Assembly: GCF_023734095.1 (NCBI RefSeq)
Contig: NZ_AP024620.1
Span: 926,501 to 990,500, forward strand
DNA from: Moorella sp. Hama-1
GTDB lineage: Bacteria; Bacillota; DSM-521; Neomoorellales; Neomoorellaceae
Length of the DNA: 64,000 nt
Direction of reading: 5' to 3'
A model generated the notes under the pieces. It saw only the letters and a list, made by a program, of their open reading frames with translations, was not told where the DNA came from and did no database searches. Within the stretch, counting starts at the first letter, position 1. The number at the start of each line of letters is the position of its first letter. Both the position numbers and the translations under genes were made by a program. Shown here in pieces: positions 23,001-46,512 of the stretch.

Positions 23001-23756
23001 ATGCCGGCTGATTATCATATCCACGGGCTGGCCCACCAGGGGCCGCCCCATACCGTCGAACGCTTGCTGCCGTACGTTGAAGCGGCCAGGGGGGCGGGCC
23101 TGACGGCCATGGGCTTTGCCGAACACGATCGTTACCTGGAAGGCCTGGATTTCAACGTCTTCACCGAACTGGAGAGGCTAACCGGTATGCCCGTCCGGGC
23201 CGGCCTGGAGGTAGACTTCCGGCCAGATAAGGACCACCAGGAGCAGTTGGCTGGCCGGCCCTGGGATTACCTGATCGGCTCCGTCCACGCCGTGGGCGAT
23301 TGGGAGTTTGACCGGCCCGGGCAGGAAGCCGGCTTTGAGACCTGGGATCTGGACGAACTCTATGCCACCTATTTTGACCTGGTAGCCCGGGCGGCAGCCA
23401 CCGGCCTCTTTCAGATCATCGGCCACCTGGACCTGATCAAAATTTACGGCCACCGGCCCCGCCGGCCGGTGCTTGAGCTGGCCGAACCGGCCCTCCAGGC
23501 CGTGGCCCGGAGCGGCGCCGCCCTGGAACTCAATACTGCCGGATTATTTAAACCGGTGGGGGAGATCTACCCCTCCCGGGACATCCTGGCCCGGGCCTTT
23601 GAACTAAACATCCCGGTTATTATCAGTTCCGATGCCCACGCTCCCGGGGAGGTGGCCAGGGAACGGGAACAGGCGCGGGAGCTTTTACGCCAGATCGGTT
23701 ATACCTGCCTGGCAACCTTCTCCAGCCGGGGGATGGCTATGGACCCACTTATTTAA
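23001..23756 (+). CDS. PHP-domain phosphoesterase, histidinol-phosphatase-like
   Basis: A 251-residue PHP (polymerase and histidinol phosphatase) family metalloenzyme. Metal ligands are visible in order: YHIHG (HxH), AEHDRY, the Glu/Asp segment RAGLEVDF, IGSVHAVGDW, GHLDLIK, and the C-terminal SSDAHAPGEV. The arrangement fits HisK-type histidinol-phosphate phosphatase, but no other histidine genes are nearby, so the substrate is open. A GAGGAG ribosome site precedes the ATG. The gene appears monocistronic between repeats and a riboswitch-controlled gene. Confidence 0.82.
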   Translation: MPADYHIHGLAHQGPPHTVERLLPYVEAARGAGLTAMGFAEHDRYLEGLDFNVFTELERLTGMPVRAGLEVDFRPDKDHQEQLAGRPWDYLIGSVHAVGDWEFDRPGQEAGFETWDLDELYATYFDLVARAAATGLFQIIGHLDLIKIYGHRPRRPVLELAEPALQAVARSGAALELNTAGLFKPVGEIYPSRDILARAFELNIPVIISSDAHAPGEVAREREQARELLRQIGYTCLATFSSRGMAMDPLI

Positions 23757-23917
23757 ATTGCCGCCGTAGTGGGCGCAAGATGTTAAATGAGGCTTTATTG
23801 TGAAAATCGGTACAAAAACGGTGTTGAAGCGGAGATGGTCTAGAGAATATCCCGGGGAAGCGCTGTTAAGTAATATTTAACCCTATGCTGATCCCTCCGG
23901 TCTTCCCGAAATTAGAC

Positions 23918-23946
23918 TTGACAGCGACCAAACCTTCCTTTATGAT
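23918..23946 (+). promoter_or_regulatory. Sigma-A promoter for the riboswitch-exchanger unit
   Basis: A perfect TTGACA at 23918-23923, a 17-base spacer, and TATGAT at 23941-23946. The start would fall about ten bases before the aptamer. Confidence 0.85.
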
Positions 23947-23961
23947 GAAATTACGAAAATT

Positions 23962-24090
23962 GCGGTTTAGGGGAGTAGCCCCGAATTGTTCCGGTACCAG
24001 GTTCGTCAAGACGGCCAACCGGCCCGGACCTGGTAGGTAACGCGCGAGACCTTCACCGCTCCTCAAAGGGGGCGATGGAGGTTTTTTTTA
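23962..24090 (+). promoter_or_regulatory. yybP-ykoY (Mn2+) riboswitch with expression platform
   Basis: The conserved core GGGGAGTAGCC near the 5' side and AACGCGCGAGACC near the 3' side match the yybP-ykoY aptamer, which senses Mn2+. The closing stem is GCGGTTTAGG (23962-23971) with CCTTCACCGC (24050-24059). That second strand is also the 5' arm of a terminator ending GGAGG and eight T residues (to 24089), so the two folds exclude each other. Ligand binding should therefore permit transcription of the exchanger gene. The logic is inferred from base pairing. Confidence 0.85.
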
Positions 24091-24148
24091 TTTAAATAAA
24101 ATAAGGAATGACAGGTAACGGAAAAATAACGGGGAAAGGGGAGAAAGT

Positions 24149-25153
24149 ATGCTTGATATCGTTTTGCTTTTAATCAGCCTGGGAGTCATTCTTCTAGGGG
24201 CGGAGGGCTTTACCAACGGTGTGGAGTGGTTGGGCAAAAAGCTGCACTTAACTGAAGGGGCGGTAGGCAGTATCCTGGCGGCAGTAGGTACGGCCCTGCC
24301 GGAGACCATGATCCCCATTATTGCCATTCTCTTCGGCGGTGGCCACGCCGGCGAGGAGATTGGCATCGGCGCCATCCTGGGGGCGCCCTTTATGCTCAGC
24401 ACCCTGGCTTTTTTTATCACCGGGGTGGCGGTCATCGCCTACCGCAGTCGCCGGCCCAATTACCCGCGTATGAACCTGGATACTGCGACCATGGGCCGGG
24501 ATTTGGGGTTCTTCCTCTGCGTTTATTCAGTGTCCGTCCTGGCCTCCTTCCTGGGAGCCCATATCTGGAAACAACTGGTGGCGGTTGGGTTGGTGATCGC
24601 CTATGCTACCTATGCCTATCTGACGGTTACCCGGGGCAATACCCTGGAAGAGGGGGAGGATTTAAATCCCCTCTACCTGGCCCGCCGGGCGGCTGAACCC
24701 GCTTCTGTCCTGGTTGTCCTGCAGATAATCCTGGCCCTGGGCATGATTGTCAGCGGCGCCCGCCTCTTTGTTACCGGGGTGGAGGACCTGGCGCGGCTCA
24801 TCGGCATCCCGCCCTTTGTTCTGGCGTTGATCATTGCTCCCGTAGCCACCGAATTGCCGGAGAAGTTTAATAGCGTTATCTGGGTCGGCCGGGGCAAGGA
24901 TACCCTGGCCCTGGGTAATATCACCGGGGCCATGGTCTTCCAGAGTTCCATGATCCCGGCCCTGGGCATCACCATGACCAGCTGGGAATTGACCACGGGG
25001 GCTTTAATCAGCGCTGTCCTGGCCATCTTTTCCGCCGGCCTGGTCTTTTTCCAGATCACCCGGCACCGTTACCTGACCCCCTATACCCTGGTGAGCGGTG
25101 GCGTCTTTTACGGCATTTTCGTCATTTTAATCTTTAACGGCGTTATCCGTTAG
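24149..25153 (+). CDS. CaCA-family cation exchanger, Mn-riboswitch controlled
   Basis: A 334-residue integral membrane protein with about ten helices of the Ca2+/cation antiporter superfamily. The two alpha repeats are visible: GAVGSILAAVGTALPETMIP near residue 40 and PPFVLALIIAPVATELPEKFNS in the second half, with the acidic GTALPE and ATELPE signatures that bind the ion. A yybP-ykoY riboswitch lies directly upstream, so the likely job is Mn2+ (or Ca2+) export or exchange under Mn2+ excess. ATG 24149 follows GGGGAGAAAG. A strong terminator ends the unit, so it is monocistronic. Confidence 0.87.
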   Translation: MLDIVLLLISLGVILLGAEGFTNGVEWLGKKLHLTEGAVGSILAAVGTALPETMIPIIAILFGGGHAGEEIGIGAILGAPFMLSTLAFFITGVAVIAYRSRRPNYPRMNLDTATMGRDLGFFLCVYSVSVLASFLGAHIWKQLVAVGLVIAYATYAYLTVTRGNTLEEGEDLNPLYLARRAAEPASVLVVLQIILALGMIVSGARLFVTGVEDLARLIGIPPFVLALIIAPVATELPEKFNSVIWVGRGKDTLALGNITGAMVFQSSMIPALGITMTSWELTTGALISAVLAIFSAGLVFFQITRHRYLTPYTLVSGGVFYGIFVILIFNGVIR

Positions 25154-25164
25154 CCCCCCAGATC

Positions 25165-25199
25165 GGGGCGGTCCCGTTATTCGGGACCGCCCCTTTTTT
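25165..25199 (+). terminator. Rho-independent terminator after the exchanger gene
   Basis: GGGGCGGTCCCG and CGGGACCGCCCC form a 12-base-pair stem followed by six T residues. Confidence 0.92.
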
Positions 25200-25475: not shown

Positions 25476-26777
25476 ATGGTGGGCATAGTGCCCCGGGTAG
25501 TAGTCGTAGGGGGCGGTTGGGCGGGCTGCGCTGCCGCCCTGGCTGCCCGCCGGGCCGGGGCGGCAGTAACCCTCCTGGAGCGGACGGATATGCTCCTGGG
25601 GACCGGCCTGGTGGGGGGCATCATGCGTAACAACGGCCGCTTTACGGCGGCTGAGGAAATGCTGGCCCTGGGCGGCGGGGAGCTATTCCGGGTTACCGAT
25701 GCCGCCGCCAGGCACCGGAATATCGATTTTGCCGGCCACCGCCATGCCTGGCTTTACGACGTGACCAGGATCGAGCCCCGGGTGCGCCGGCTCCTGGAGG
25801 AGGCCGGGGTGGAAGTCTACCCCTTGAGCCGGGTCACGGCCGTCCACCTCGATAAAGACAGGATCACCGCCGTCCAGACGGAGGGCGGCCAGACCTGTGC
25901 CGGGGAAGCCTTTGTCGATGCCACCGGTACGGCCGGGCCGCCGGCCAACTGCCGCCGCTATGGCAACGGCTGCGCCATGTGCATCTATCGCTGCCCGGCC
26001 TTTGGCGGCCGGGTGGGCCCGGCCGCCCTGGCCGGGGTGCAGGAGTATGCCGCCCTCCGCCGGGGTGGCGGCCGTGGTGCCCTGAGCGGTTCCTGCAAGC
26101 TCCACAAGGGTTCCCTGGCACCGTGGTTGGTGAGCCGACTGGAGGCCGAGGGAGTAGCCCTGCTTCCTTTGCCTGCGGACCTACCGCCTAAAGGGGATTT
26201 GCTCCAGCGGAAGGCCTGCCAGCAGTACGCCCTGCCGGAGTATGCGGCGAATATCATTCTCCTGGATACCGGCCCGGCCAAACTGATGGCGCCCTTTTTT
26301 CCCCTGGAGGTTTTGCGGCGGATCGGGGGCCTGGAAAAGGCCCGCTTTGAGGACCCCTATGCCGGCGGCCTGGGCAACTCGGTACGCTTCCTGGCCATGG
26401 TACCCCGGGATAATACCCTCAAGGTTGAGGGCCTGGCTAACCTCTTTTGTGCCGGCGAAAGGGCGGGGCCTTTCGTCGGCCATACCGAGGCCATTGTCAC
26501 CGGAACCCTGGCCGGCCATAATGCCGCCCGCCTCCTGGCGGGGATAGAGCCTCTGGTTCTGCCGGCCAACCTGGCCGTAGGCGATATCATCAGCTATACC
26601 CGCCTCCAGGTGGCTGGCGGCGACGGTCTCTACCAGCGTTTTACCTTTTCCGGTGCCGGTTATTTCGCCAGGATGCAGAAGCTGGGGCTCTATACCACCG
26701 ACCGGGAGGCCATCAAACAGCGGGCCGGCGACCTGGCCGGGGTATTTTCCCGCCCCCTCCCGGGCAGGAAAAAGTAG
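25476..26777 (+). CDS. FAD-dependent oxidoreductase with CxxCxxxC motif
   Basis: A 433-residue flavoprotein related to succinate dehydrogenase/GidA-like FAD-dependent oxidoreductases of Firmicutes. The FAD motif is VVVGGGWAGCAAALAARRAG near the N-terminus. A Cys cluster CAMCIYRCPAFGG near residue 166 may bind iron-sulfur, and a late FAD-contacting segment is LFCAGERAGPFVGHTEA. The substrate is not known. The ATG at 25476 touches its putative ribosome site; GTG 25488 with GGAAGG upstream is an alternative. A TATAAT at 25444-25449 may be its -10 box, though the -35 is weak. It is probably monocistronic. Confidence 0.78.
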   Translation: MVGIVPRVVVVGGGWAGCAAALAARRAGAAVTLLERTDMLLGTGLVGGIMRNNGRFTAAEEMLALGGGELFRVTDAAARHRNIDFAGHRHAWLYDVTRIEPRVRRLLEEAGVEVYPLSRVTAVHLDKDRITAVQTEGGQTCAGEAFVDATGTAGPPANCRRYGNGCAMCIYRCPAFGGRVGPAALAGVQEYAALRRGGGRGALSGSCKLHKGSLAPWLVSRLEAEGVALLPLPADLPPKGDLLQRKACQQYALPEYAANIILLDTGPAKLMAPFFPLEVLRRIGGLEKARFEDPYAGGLGNSVRFLAMVPRDNTLKVEGLANLFCAGERAGPFVGHTEAIVTGTLAGHNAARLLAGIEPLVLPANLAVGDIISYTRLQVAGGDGLYQRFTFSGAGYFARMQKLGLYTTDREAIKQRAGDLAGVFSRPLPGRKK

Positions 26778-37265: not shown

Positions 37266-38201
37266 TTGTGCCTTTTGGGTATCGATCTCGGCGGGACGTC
37301 GATTAAGGCCGGCCTGGTAGATAAAAAGGGGAAGATCCTGGTCAAGGGGCAGGTGCCGACCGGGGCCGGGGAAGGGGCGGTAGCAGTCCTGGGCCGCATC
37401 CGGGACCTGGCCCGGAACCTGGCCGGGGAACGGGGGTTGGCCCTGGCGGACATCGCCGGGGTGGGGATCGGCATCCCCGGTTCTGTTGACGTGGAAAGAG
37501 GGGAGGTCCGCCTGGCCCCCAACCTTTTCTGGCGCGACTTTCCCCTGCGGGAGGAACTGGCGGCTTCATTAGATCTGCCGGTGGTCGTGGAGAACGACGC
37601 CCATGTGGCCGCCCTGGGGGAGATGTGGCAGGGTGCTGGACGGGGATTTCATTCTCTACTTATGATAACCATCGGCACCGGCATTGGTTCGGGGTTGATT
37701 ATCGCCGGCCGCATTCATCATGGAGTTTTTGGCTACGGTGCCGAAATGGGGCACCTGAAGATGGTCCGTGACGGCCGGCAGTGCCACTGCGGCGGCCAGG
37801 GCTGCCTGGAGACCCTGGCTTCGGCCACAGCCATGGTCCGCTCCTTCCGGGAGTACCTGGCTGCCGGTCACCCCTCCCGGTTGCCGGACAGCCCCGACCT
37901 GGGGGCCAGGGAGATCCTGGCCGCCGCCACCGGGGGTGACGAACTGGCGGCGCGGGTTATCGACGAGGCTGCTTATTACCTGGGAACGGCCCTGGCCAAT
38001 GCCGTCCTGCTAGCCGGGCCGGAAGGGGTCATTATCGGCGGTGGGCCGGCCCAGGCCGGGGAAATAATCCTGGCGCCCATTCGCAAACACATGGCTGCCG
38101 CCCTGGGGGCCTGGCAGCTAAAACCAGTGCCGGTCCTAGGGGCGGAACTGGGCAATGACGCTGGCATTATCGGCGCCGCCCGGCTGCAGTTGCTCAGATA
38201 A
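37266..38201 (+). CDS. ROK-family glucokinase
   Basis: A roughly 311-residue ROK sugar kinase, most likely glucokinase. It has the phosphate-binding start LGIDLGGTSIKAGLVD, the sugar-binding segment VVVENDAHVAALGE, the second phosphate loop TIGTGIGSGLII, the catalytic-region GHLKM and the ROK zinc motif CHCGGQGCLE. TTG 37266 is preferred, because AAGGAG lies nine bases upstream and the family begins here; the open frame reaches back to 37206 with no matching residues. It stands alone, without sugar-transport genes nearby. Confidence 0.85.
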   Translation: MCLLGIDLGGTSIKAGLVDKKGKILVKGQVPTGAGEGAVAVLGRIRDLARNLAGERGLALADIAGVGIGIPGSVDVERGEVRLAPNLFWRDFPLREELAASLDLPVVVENDAHVAALGEMWQGAGRGFHSLLMITIGTGIGSGLIIAGRIHHGVFGYGAEMGHLKMVRDGRQCHCGGQGCLETLASATAMVRSFREYLAAGHPSRLPDSPDLGAREILAAATGGDELAARVIDEAAYYLGTALANAVLLAGPEGVIIGGGPAQAGEIILAPIRKHMAAALGAWQLKPVPVLGAELGNDAGIIGAARLQLLR

Positions 38202-45502: not shown

Positions 45503-45548
45503 AGGTTCTCACTTCCAACCTCCCACTTCCCACATCTTTTTAAGAGGT
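45503..45548 (+). repeat. Partial R1 repeat before rsmH
   Basis: GGTTCTCACTTCCAACCTCC followed by CACTTCCCACATCTTTTTAAGAGG resembles the last third of R1 (54895-54933). The ribosome site AAGAGG of rsmH lies at its end. Confidence 0.5.
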
Positions 45549-45555
45549 GGCGGCT

Positions 45556-46512
45556 TTGCCCTTTGCCCACCAACCAGTATTACTAGCAGAAGTTGTCCAA
45601 CTCCTTGATCCCAGGCCGGGGGAGTTCTTCGTCGATGCCACGGTGGGTGGCGGTGGCCATAGCGCCGCCATCCTGCCCCGGCTGCTCCCCGGTGGACATC
45701 TCCTGGGTCTTGATCGCGACGCTGCGGCTGTGACCGCCGCCAGGGAACGCCTGGCTCCCTTCGGCACTGGAGCGGAGATCGTCCAGGCCAATTTTCGGGA
45801 TCTGGCGGCTGTCCTGGCGGCCAGGGGCATCCAGGGGGTGGATGGCCTCCTTTTTGACCTGGGGGTATCCTCCTACCAGCTGGATAATCCGGAACGCGGT
45901 TTCAGTTACCAGGTCGATGCCCCCCTGGACATGCGTATGGGGCAGGATCAGGATTTGACGGCGGCCAAGGTAGTTAATAATTGGCCCGCCGATAAACTGG
46001 CAGCTGTGATCTGGCAATATGGCGAAGAGCGTTGGGCGACGCGGATTGCCGACTTTATCGTCGCCGCCCGGCAGGAAAGGCCCATTACGACCACCGGGCA
46101 GTTGGTGACGATTATCAAAGAAGCAATTCCGGCCGGGGCCAGGAGGTCCGGACATCATCCCGCCAAGCGGACCTTCCAGGCCCTCCGGATTGCCATAAAT
46201 GGCGAGCTGGACGCCCTGCAGTCCGCCCTGGCCGAACTGGAGGCCATTTTAAAGCCCGGCGGCCGGGTAGGGGTTATCTCCTTTCATTCCCTGGAGGACA
46301 GGATTGTTAAAGAAGTCTTTCGCAATTTGAGCGGCCGGTGTACCTGCCCGCCAGGCCTGCCGGTCTGCACCTGTGGCCGGCGCCAGGTACTGGTGCCGGT
46401 TACCCGTAAACCCGTAGTTCCCACGGCAACAGAAATCGCCGGTAATCCCAGGGCCCGTAGCGCCAGGTTGCGGGTGGCCCGGCGGGTTCTAAAGAACAAG
46501 GACGGTGAATAA
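45556..46512 (+). CDS. rsmH: RsmH (MraW), 16S rRNA C1402 N4-methyltransferase
   Basis: RsmH methylates N4 of cytidine 1402 of 16S rRNA. The roughly 318-residue protein begins [16 protein letters not shown], has the SAM loop [18 protein letters not shown], the conserved [19 protein letters not shown] and [15 protein letters not shown] segments, and a C-terminal [15 protein letters not shown] 45556 is preferred over GTG 45547 because it matches the family N-terminus and spacing from AAGAGGTGG. Its place between mraZ and ftsL is the classic dcw order. Confidence 0.95.

Follow-up and report, generated by a model that had tools for sequence, protein, structure and literature searches.

Two described systems stand closest to the leader discussed here. 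The first is the yybP-ykoY riboswitch (Rfam family RF00080) of L. lactis and X. oryzae, whose solved structures contain a four-arm junction and in which an adenosine in loop L3 contacts Mn2+, as described in the accessible text of PMC6754395. According to the accessible parts of PMC11087558 and PMC6754395, the closing helix P1.1 and the terminator of the Mn2+ riboswitch are mutually exclusive. The second is B. pertussis BP3410, annotated as a calcium:cation antiporter and preceded by a Mn-responsive yybP-ykoY leader. In the accessible portion of the published account (PMC8546581), transcription halts in this leader without Mn and is on with Mn, calcium is without effect on BP3410 expression, and cells with functional BP3410 contain about 5-fold less Mn; the protein exports Mn2+. 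Thus, as far as this account goes, a Mn2+ exporter of the CaCA superfamily under a yybP-ykoY riboswitch is already in print (PMC8546581). In our literature search no paper was found in which yybP, riboswitch and Moorella are all mentioned.

In the window (the whole 64-kb stretch of Moorella DNA analysed here) a riboswitch and a terminator precede a CaCA gene, which confirms what the first-pass annotation had observed. The exchanger gene lies between a PHP-domain gene (23001-23756) and an FAD-dependent oxidoreductase gene (25476-26777). Since it carries its own terminator, it forms a single-gene unit. The promoter, previously called perfect, agrees with the consensus in 11 of 12 letters and is better described as nearly perfect. 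The features of the locus are:

23918-23946, + strand: predicted sigma-70-type promoter TTGACA-17-TATGAT, from the consensus match alone (-35 TTGACA at 23918-23923, spacer of 17 nt, -10 TATGAT at 23941-23946)
About 23962-24059, + strand: yybP-ykoY (Mn2+) riboswitch aptamer, from the match of covariance model R3 (61.9 bits, E=7.6e-14)
23962-23971, + strand: 5' strand of the closing (switch) helix P1.1, GCGGU and AGG, pairing with 24050-24052 and 24055-24059
23970-23978, + strand: conserved 5' segment of L1, GGGGAGUAG, unchanged in all 18 leaders of alignment A5
23981-23994, + strand: second arm of the junction, a CCG..CGG hairpin that is weak in the window's sequence (-2.0 kcal/mol)
23995-24035, + strand: P3-L3-P4 arm with covarying P3 and P4 (P3 at 23995-24004/24026-24035, L3 at 24005-24012, P4 at 24013-24016/24021-24024)
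24042-24052, + strand: 3' segment of L1, GCGCGAGACCU, with GC.AGACCTT invariant in A5
24046-24089, + strand: intrinsic terminator, from folding (-23.5 kcal/mol for the segment), its 5' arm taking the 3' strand of P1.1
24136-24144, + strand: probable ribosome binding site, from sequence
24149-25153, + strand: CaCA-superfamily cation exchanger (Na_Ca_ex), 334 aa, from PF01699 (E=1.6e-25)
25165-25199, + strand: intrinsic terminator 3' of the exchanger gene, from a terminator scan

The leader is a member of the yybP-ykoY class. It shares with the L. lactis and X. oryzae structures the L1 strands GGGGAGUAG and AGACC, the invariant CA of L3 and the P3/P4 arm, and with the L. lactis switch the use of the P1.1 3' strand as a terminator arm. 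The core that had been proposed for it is present, with letters GGGGAGTAG at 23970-23978 and ACGCGCGAGACC at 24040-24051 and with the closing helix, and an independently built covariance model matches. By position, A24008 is the Mn-contacting adenosine; the CA of L3 is invariant in all 18 leaders of A5. In contrast to the four-way junction of the solved structures, the window leader has three arms, the fourth being replaced by the linker GGUAACGC, and it falls below Rfam detection. A crude hairpin test applied to the TerC, P-type ATPase and GDT1 leaders, 60 in all, likewise found the fourth arm missing in 18, and both side arms present in just 8. Hence, as far as this crude test can tell, the four-way junction does not define the class.

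The absence of a match to RF00080 (Rfam 15; 177 positions, cut-off 45 bits) had been set beforehand as a refuting test, and the model is indeed silent here, with no match in the window at the gathering cut-off and none on 23900-24170 at E<=10. The L3 motif and the pairing of P1 can be recognised by eye at the site. We attribute this miss to an insensitivity of the model in Bacillota rather than to a failure of class membership; the test would consequently have discarded a true finding. In a search of 16 loci (59,686 bases), the leader of the M. mulderi ortholog (L008) was the only one matched (E=0.0044), with no match to 13 other exchanger leaders. Searched alone, L008 reached E=2.2e-5 and 25.5 bits, which is under the cut-off. 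The P3/L3 region in the RF00080 alignment to L008 is displaced relative to the real motif. The best RF00080 site in the window's own genome (G000) is a TerC leader, with a weak 17.5 bits (E=0.014). Among 119 Bacillota genomes RF00080 matched at E<=0.01 in 29 and above the cut-off in 2. R3 matched in 76 of 119 genomes drawn in the same way, some of which had contributed to its training. Compared by eye, 34 of the 37 sites matched by RF00080 are also matched by R3. The RF00080 matches include CaCA leaders in five genomes (G058, G025, G070, G097 and G092) at E<=1.1e-5.

Three covariance models of our own were used. R1, built from 12 exchanger leaders, gave 49.6-62.6 bits for four held-out leaders (L018, L019, L020 and L026); its match to L100 was no better than E=0.21. 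Within 22 genomes of the window's class it also matched leaders of TerC genes (TerC by Pfam), with 33.1 bits in the window's own genome and 36.3 bits in G011, a member of the same family; G011 further gave a weak match, at 21.3 bits and E=0.08, for the leader of a GDT1-like gene. R2, built from 14 leaders including two of TerC genes, gave matches in 152 of the 398 Bacillota genomes searched. R3 was built from 60 TerC, P-type ATPase and GDT1 leaders and contains no exchanger leader and none of the window's family, a separation that is qualified by some circularity, since its leaders were collected and aligned using R2. Its sole match in the 64 kb is the leader of the exchanger, at about 23961-24059. 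In 48 sources it gave 34 matches, which include every leader known there. R3 matched all 16 CaCA leaders from the family and order to which the window belongs (L006-L020 and L026), as well as L100, a leader from a distant Bacillota MAG, and each of the 13 additional CaCA leaders from the phylum on which it was run. Weak R1 and R2 matches elsewhere in the window (45544-45699, 37423-37547 and 26301-26427; E 0.11-0.55) were judged to be chance, as were R1 matches to L134-L136 and L138 (E 0.03-0.06), where the core motif is absent.

P3 and P4 covary in the leader alignments. Independent folding of A5, a MAFFT alignment, gives 13 pairs, of which 11 lie in P3-L3-P4 and six are changed on both sides, while covariation on alignments A3 and A7 leans on the model that built them. 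On A5, RNAalifold also chose a GG/CC pairing within L1; P1.1, with hardly any variation, was not recovered. Since P1.1 is nearly invariant in the exchanger leaders, its support comes from conservation and from the pairing itself instead of covariation; its AAGG/CCUU part is conserved in nearly all leaders aligned. Among the 60 TerC, P-type ATPase and GDT1 leaders, three of four P1.1 pairs are changed on both sides in a model-fitted alignment.

The terminator stem spans 24046-24085 and is followed by a run of eight U residues (24082-24089). A simple terminator scan missed this hairpin, which was revealed by folding. Folding also bears out the proposal that its 5' arm is the closing strand of the aptamer, since the arm includes 24050-24059. 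An equivalent hairpin with the P1.1 3' strand as its 5' arm was found in 20 of 20 folded leaders; in L016 and L020 it is followed by a weak U tract. The stretch separating terminator and gene in L016 (G007) carries two copies of a repeat (TTTCTATTATATATATAAACCCGGGAA) about 27 bases long. The whole leader folds 3.6 standard deviations under its dinucleotide shuffles, of which 1 in 200 is equally good. The free fold favours the terminator state (-59.3 kcal/mol, against -43.5 kcal/mol with P1.1 forced), energies that exclude metal and tertiary contact. This is the expectation for a switch that needs its ligand to stay on. The overlap of terminator and closing helix, as in the L. lactis ON switch, lends support by analogy to a putative ON switch with metal, and the earlier reading of class, gene and switch direction is supported. 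The free-fold hairpin GGGG-AGUAG-CCCC was rejected as the true structure, since its CCCC is not conserved outside the genus (L017-L020, L100), where the letters of L1 and P1.1 are kept.

Conservation was followed by a motif scan upstream of 110 exchanger loci, 30 from whole genomes and 80 from GTDB contigs, with some genomes present in both sets. The GGAGTAG...AGACC pair was found at 16 of the 30 and 7 of the 80 loci, respectively. The leader stands ahead of the orthologous exchanger gene in all 11 genomes of the genus, and beyond it the motif pair occurs in four more members of the family, one of the order and the MAG of L100. By the same scan the pair is missing upstream of the exchanger in G011 and of the Geobacter and Syntrophomonas homologues. 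The G011 exchanger (L021) has no aptamer and keeps a terminator, ACAAGACCTTC...GAAGGTCTTTTTT, resembling the remnant of a riboswitch without its 5' part. At L100 a sub-threshold T-box leader (1502-1770; 80.7 bits, cut-off 93) lies downstream of the exchanger.

If the leader were no riboswitch at all, its likeness to the core having arisen by chance in an attenuator or a fortuitous terminator, this would agree with the RF00080 blank and with the aptamer part alone not being unusually stable (z = -0.99; 29 of 200 shuffles equally good). This reading is contradicted by the R3 E-value, and both the covariation of P3 and P4 and the retention of the leader throughout the genus argue against it. We give it hardly any credence and continue with the yybP-ykoY riboswitch.

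Pfam assigned the 120 proteins downstream of R2 matches to TerC (42), P-type ATPase (26), Na_Ca_ex (23), GDT1 (8), OAD_beta (5) and a few others. The OAD_beta cases are beta subunits of the Na+-pumping oxaloacetate decarboxylase (L147, L150, L168, L182 and L246); genes for DUF5685, LemA, M48 and Zn_peptidase_2 proteins likewise stand behind yybP-ykoY leaders. Of the 23 riboswitch-linked CaCA genes, seven come from the window's own family or order and 16 from ten other families, some of them in near-duplicate genomes. Within the genus the class also precedes genes for P-type ATPase (G001-G004, by eye), GDT1 (G005) and TerC (G000), and in G006 a riboswitch match lies beside GDT1 hits. MntP-family genes are present in the genus, with no R3 match beside them in G000; the exchanger thus need not be the sole Mn exporter. 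In the TerC leader of G000 (L133; G000:C1:1053665-1053763, minus strand) the terminator lies several hundred bases ahead of the TerC gene. Two riboswitch matches on opposite strands, about 140 bases apart, were seen at G125:C1:3264711-3265051 and possibly form a divergent pair.

With regard to the ligand, the accessible text of a review considers that certain yybP variants may respond to divalent ions other than Mn2+ (PMC7266159). A yybP-ykoY variant sensing another divalent ion is nevertheless improbable at this locus, since the L1 and L3 letters are identical to those of the TerC leader of the same genome (GGGGAGUAGC, CGUCAAGACGG and GCGAGACC) and the Mn-contacting adenosine is invariant in A5. 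The analysis itself establishes that the leader belongs to the class, its structure and conservation, its linkage to the gene and its overlap with the terminator; that Mn2+ is the ligand, which way expression responds to it and which ion the exchanger carries are inferred.

The exchanger contains two Na_Ca_ex repeats (PF01699, 90.3 bits, cut-off 24.9). Its score with the calcium/sodium antiporter model TIGR00367 (77.9 bits) is below the curated cut-off of 179.65. By sequence it belongs to the same family as the Na+/Ca2+ exchanger NCX_Mj (PDB entries 3v5u, 5hwx and others; E 1.6e-7). Both alpha-repeat glutamates, E54 and E213 in NCX_Mj, are retained. In the second repeat GTSLPE is replaced by ATELPE (ATELPEK), and the positions of S236 and D240, which we take to be ion ligands, are Ala and Gln in the alignment. 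One could envisage that the Moorella exchanger leaders are a three-armed yybP-ykoY variant adapted to some divalent ion in place of Mn2+, with the ATELPEK exchanger and its altered ion-site letters exporting that ion, but the chances of this are slim in our view. ATELPE is common to nearly all homologues in our tree, with or without the riboswitch, and is thus a mark of the subfamily and not of the metal. The ion-site letters were for the same reason discarded as proof of Mn2+. The ordinary GT(S/T)LPE type is represented by six of the exchangers linked to the riboswitch. In the tree of 112 homologues 86 have no riboswitch, including that of G011, so that the linkage is not universal. The riboswitch label changes at least six times on this tree, three changes being forced by well-supported branches. 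Hence, the riboswitch was gained or lost repeatedly.

A Mn2+-sensing riboswitch could also control an exchanger that moves mainly Ca2+ (or Na+), Mn2+ being only the signal, for example because of Mn2+/Ca2+ competition in the cell envelope. The annotation and the Na_Ca_ex family agree with this, as do the 26 P-type cation ATPases and five Na+-pump subunits among the 120 proteins behind the same leader class. On the other hand, two distinct CaCA groups are recurrently linked to the riboswitch, and in G058 and G025 one exchanger copy has the leader and its sister copies do not. Furthermore, BP3410 is a CaCA protein that exports Mn2+ in the accessible account (PMC8546581). We therefore regard a predominant Ca2+ or Na+ transport as unlikely, and less remote than the other alternatives. 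BP3410 is likened to the window gene by its published description as a CaCA-superfamily gene under a yybP-ykoY leader; it comes from another phylum, and its leader matches Rfam, with a published E of 8.5e-15 (PMC8546581). With this tested precedent, the Mn2+ role of the Moorella exchanger is probable by analogy.

Altogether, we are highly confident that the leader is a yybP-ykoY transcriptional ON switch and that the exchanger most likely exports Mn2+. Transcription would begin at the 23918-23946 promoter. If metal is lacking, the terminator stem would capture the 3' strand of P1.1 (24050-24059) and transcription would stop at about 24089. Mn2+, with Mg2+, bridging L1 and L3 would hold P1.1, so that the terminator is blocked and the exchanger is made. 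The exchanger would then most likely carry Mn2+ out of the cell against Na+ or H+.

A switch of this kind is already known; the surprises are the insensitivity of RF00080 in the phylum and the frequency of CaCA exchangers behind the riboswitch. Since RF00080 at its cut-off misses most such riboswitches in the phylum, genome annotation underreports them. For a group of Bacillota exchangers, those of Moorella included, that carry a calcium/sodium antiporter annotation, the riboswitch linkage, which is the same as that tested for BP3410 of B. pertussis, suggests a concrete likely function, namely the export of Mn2+.
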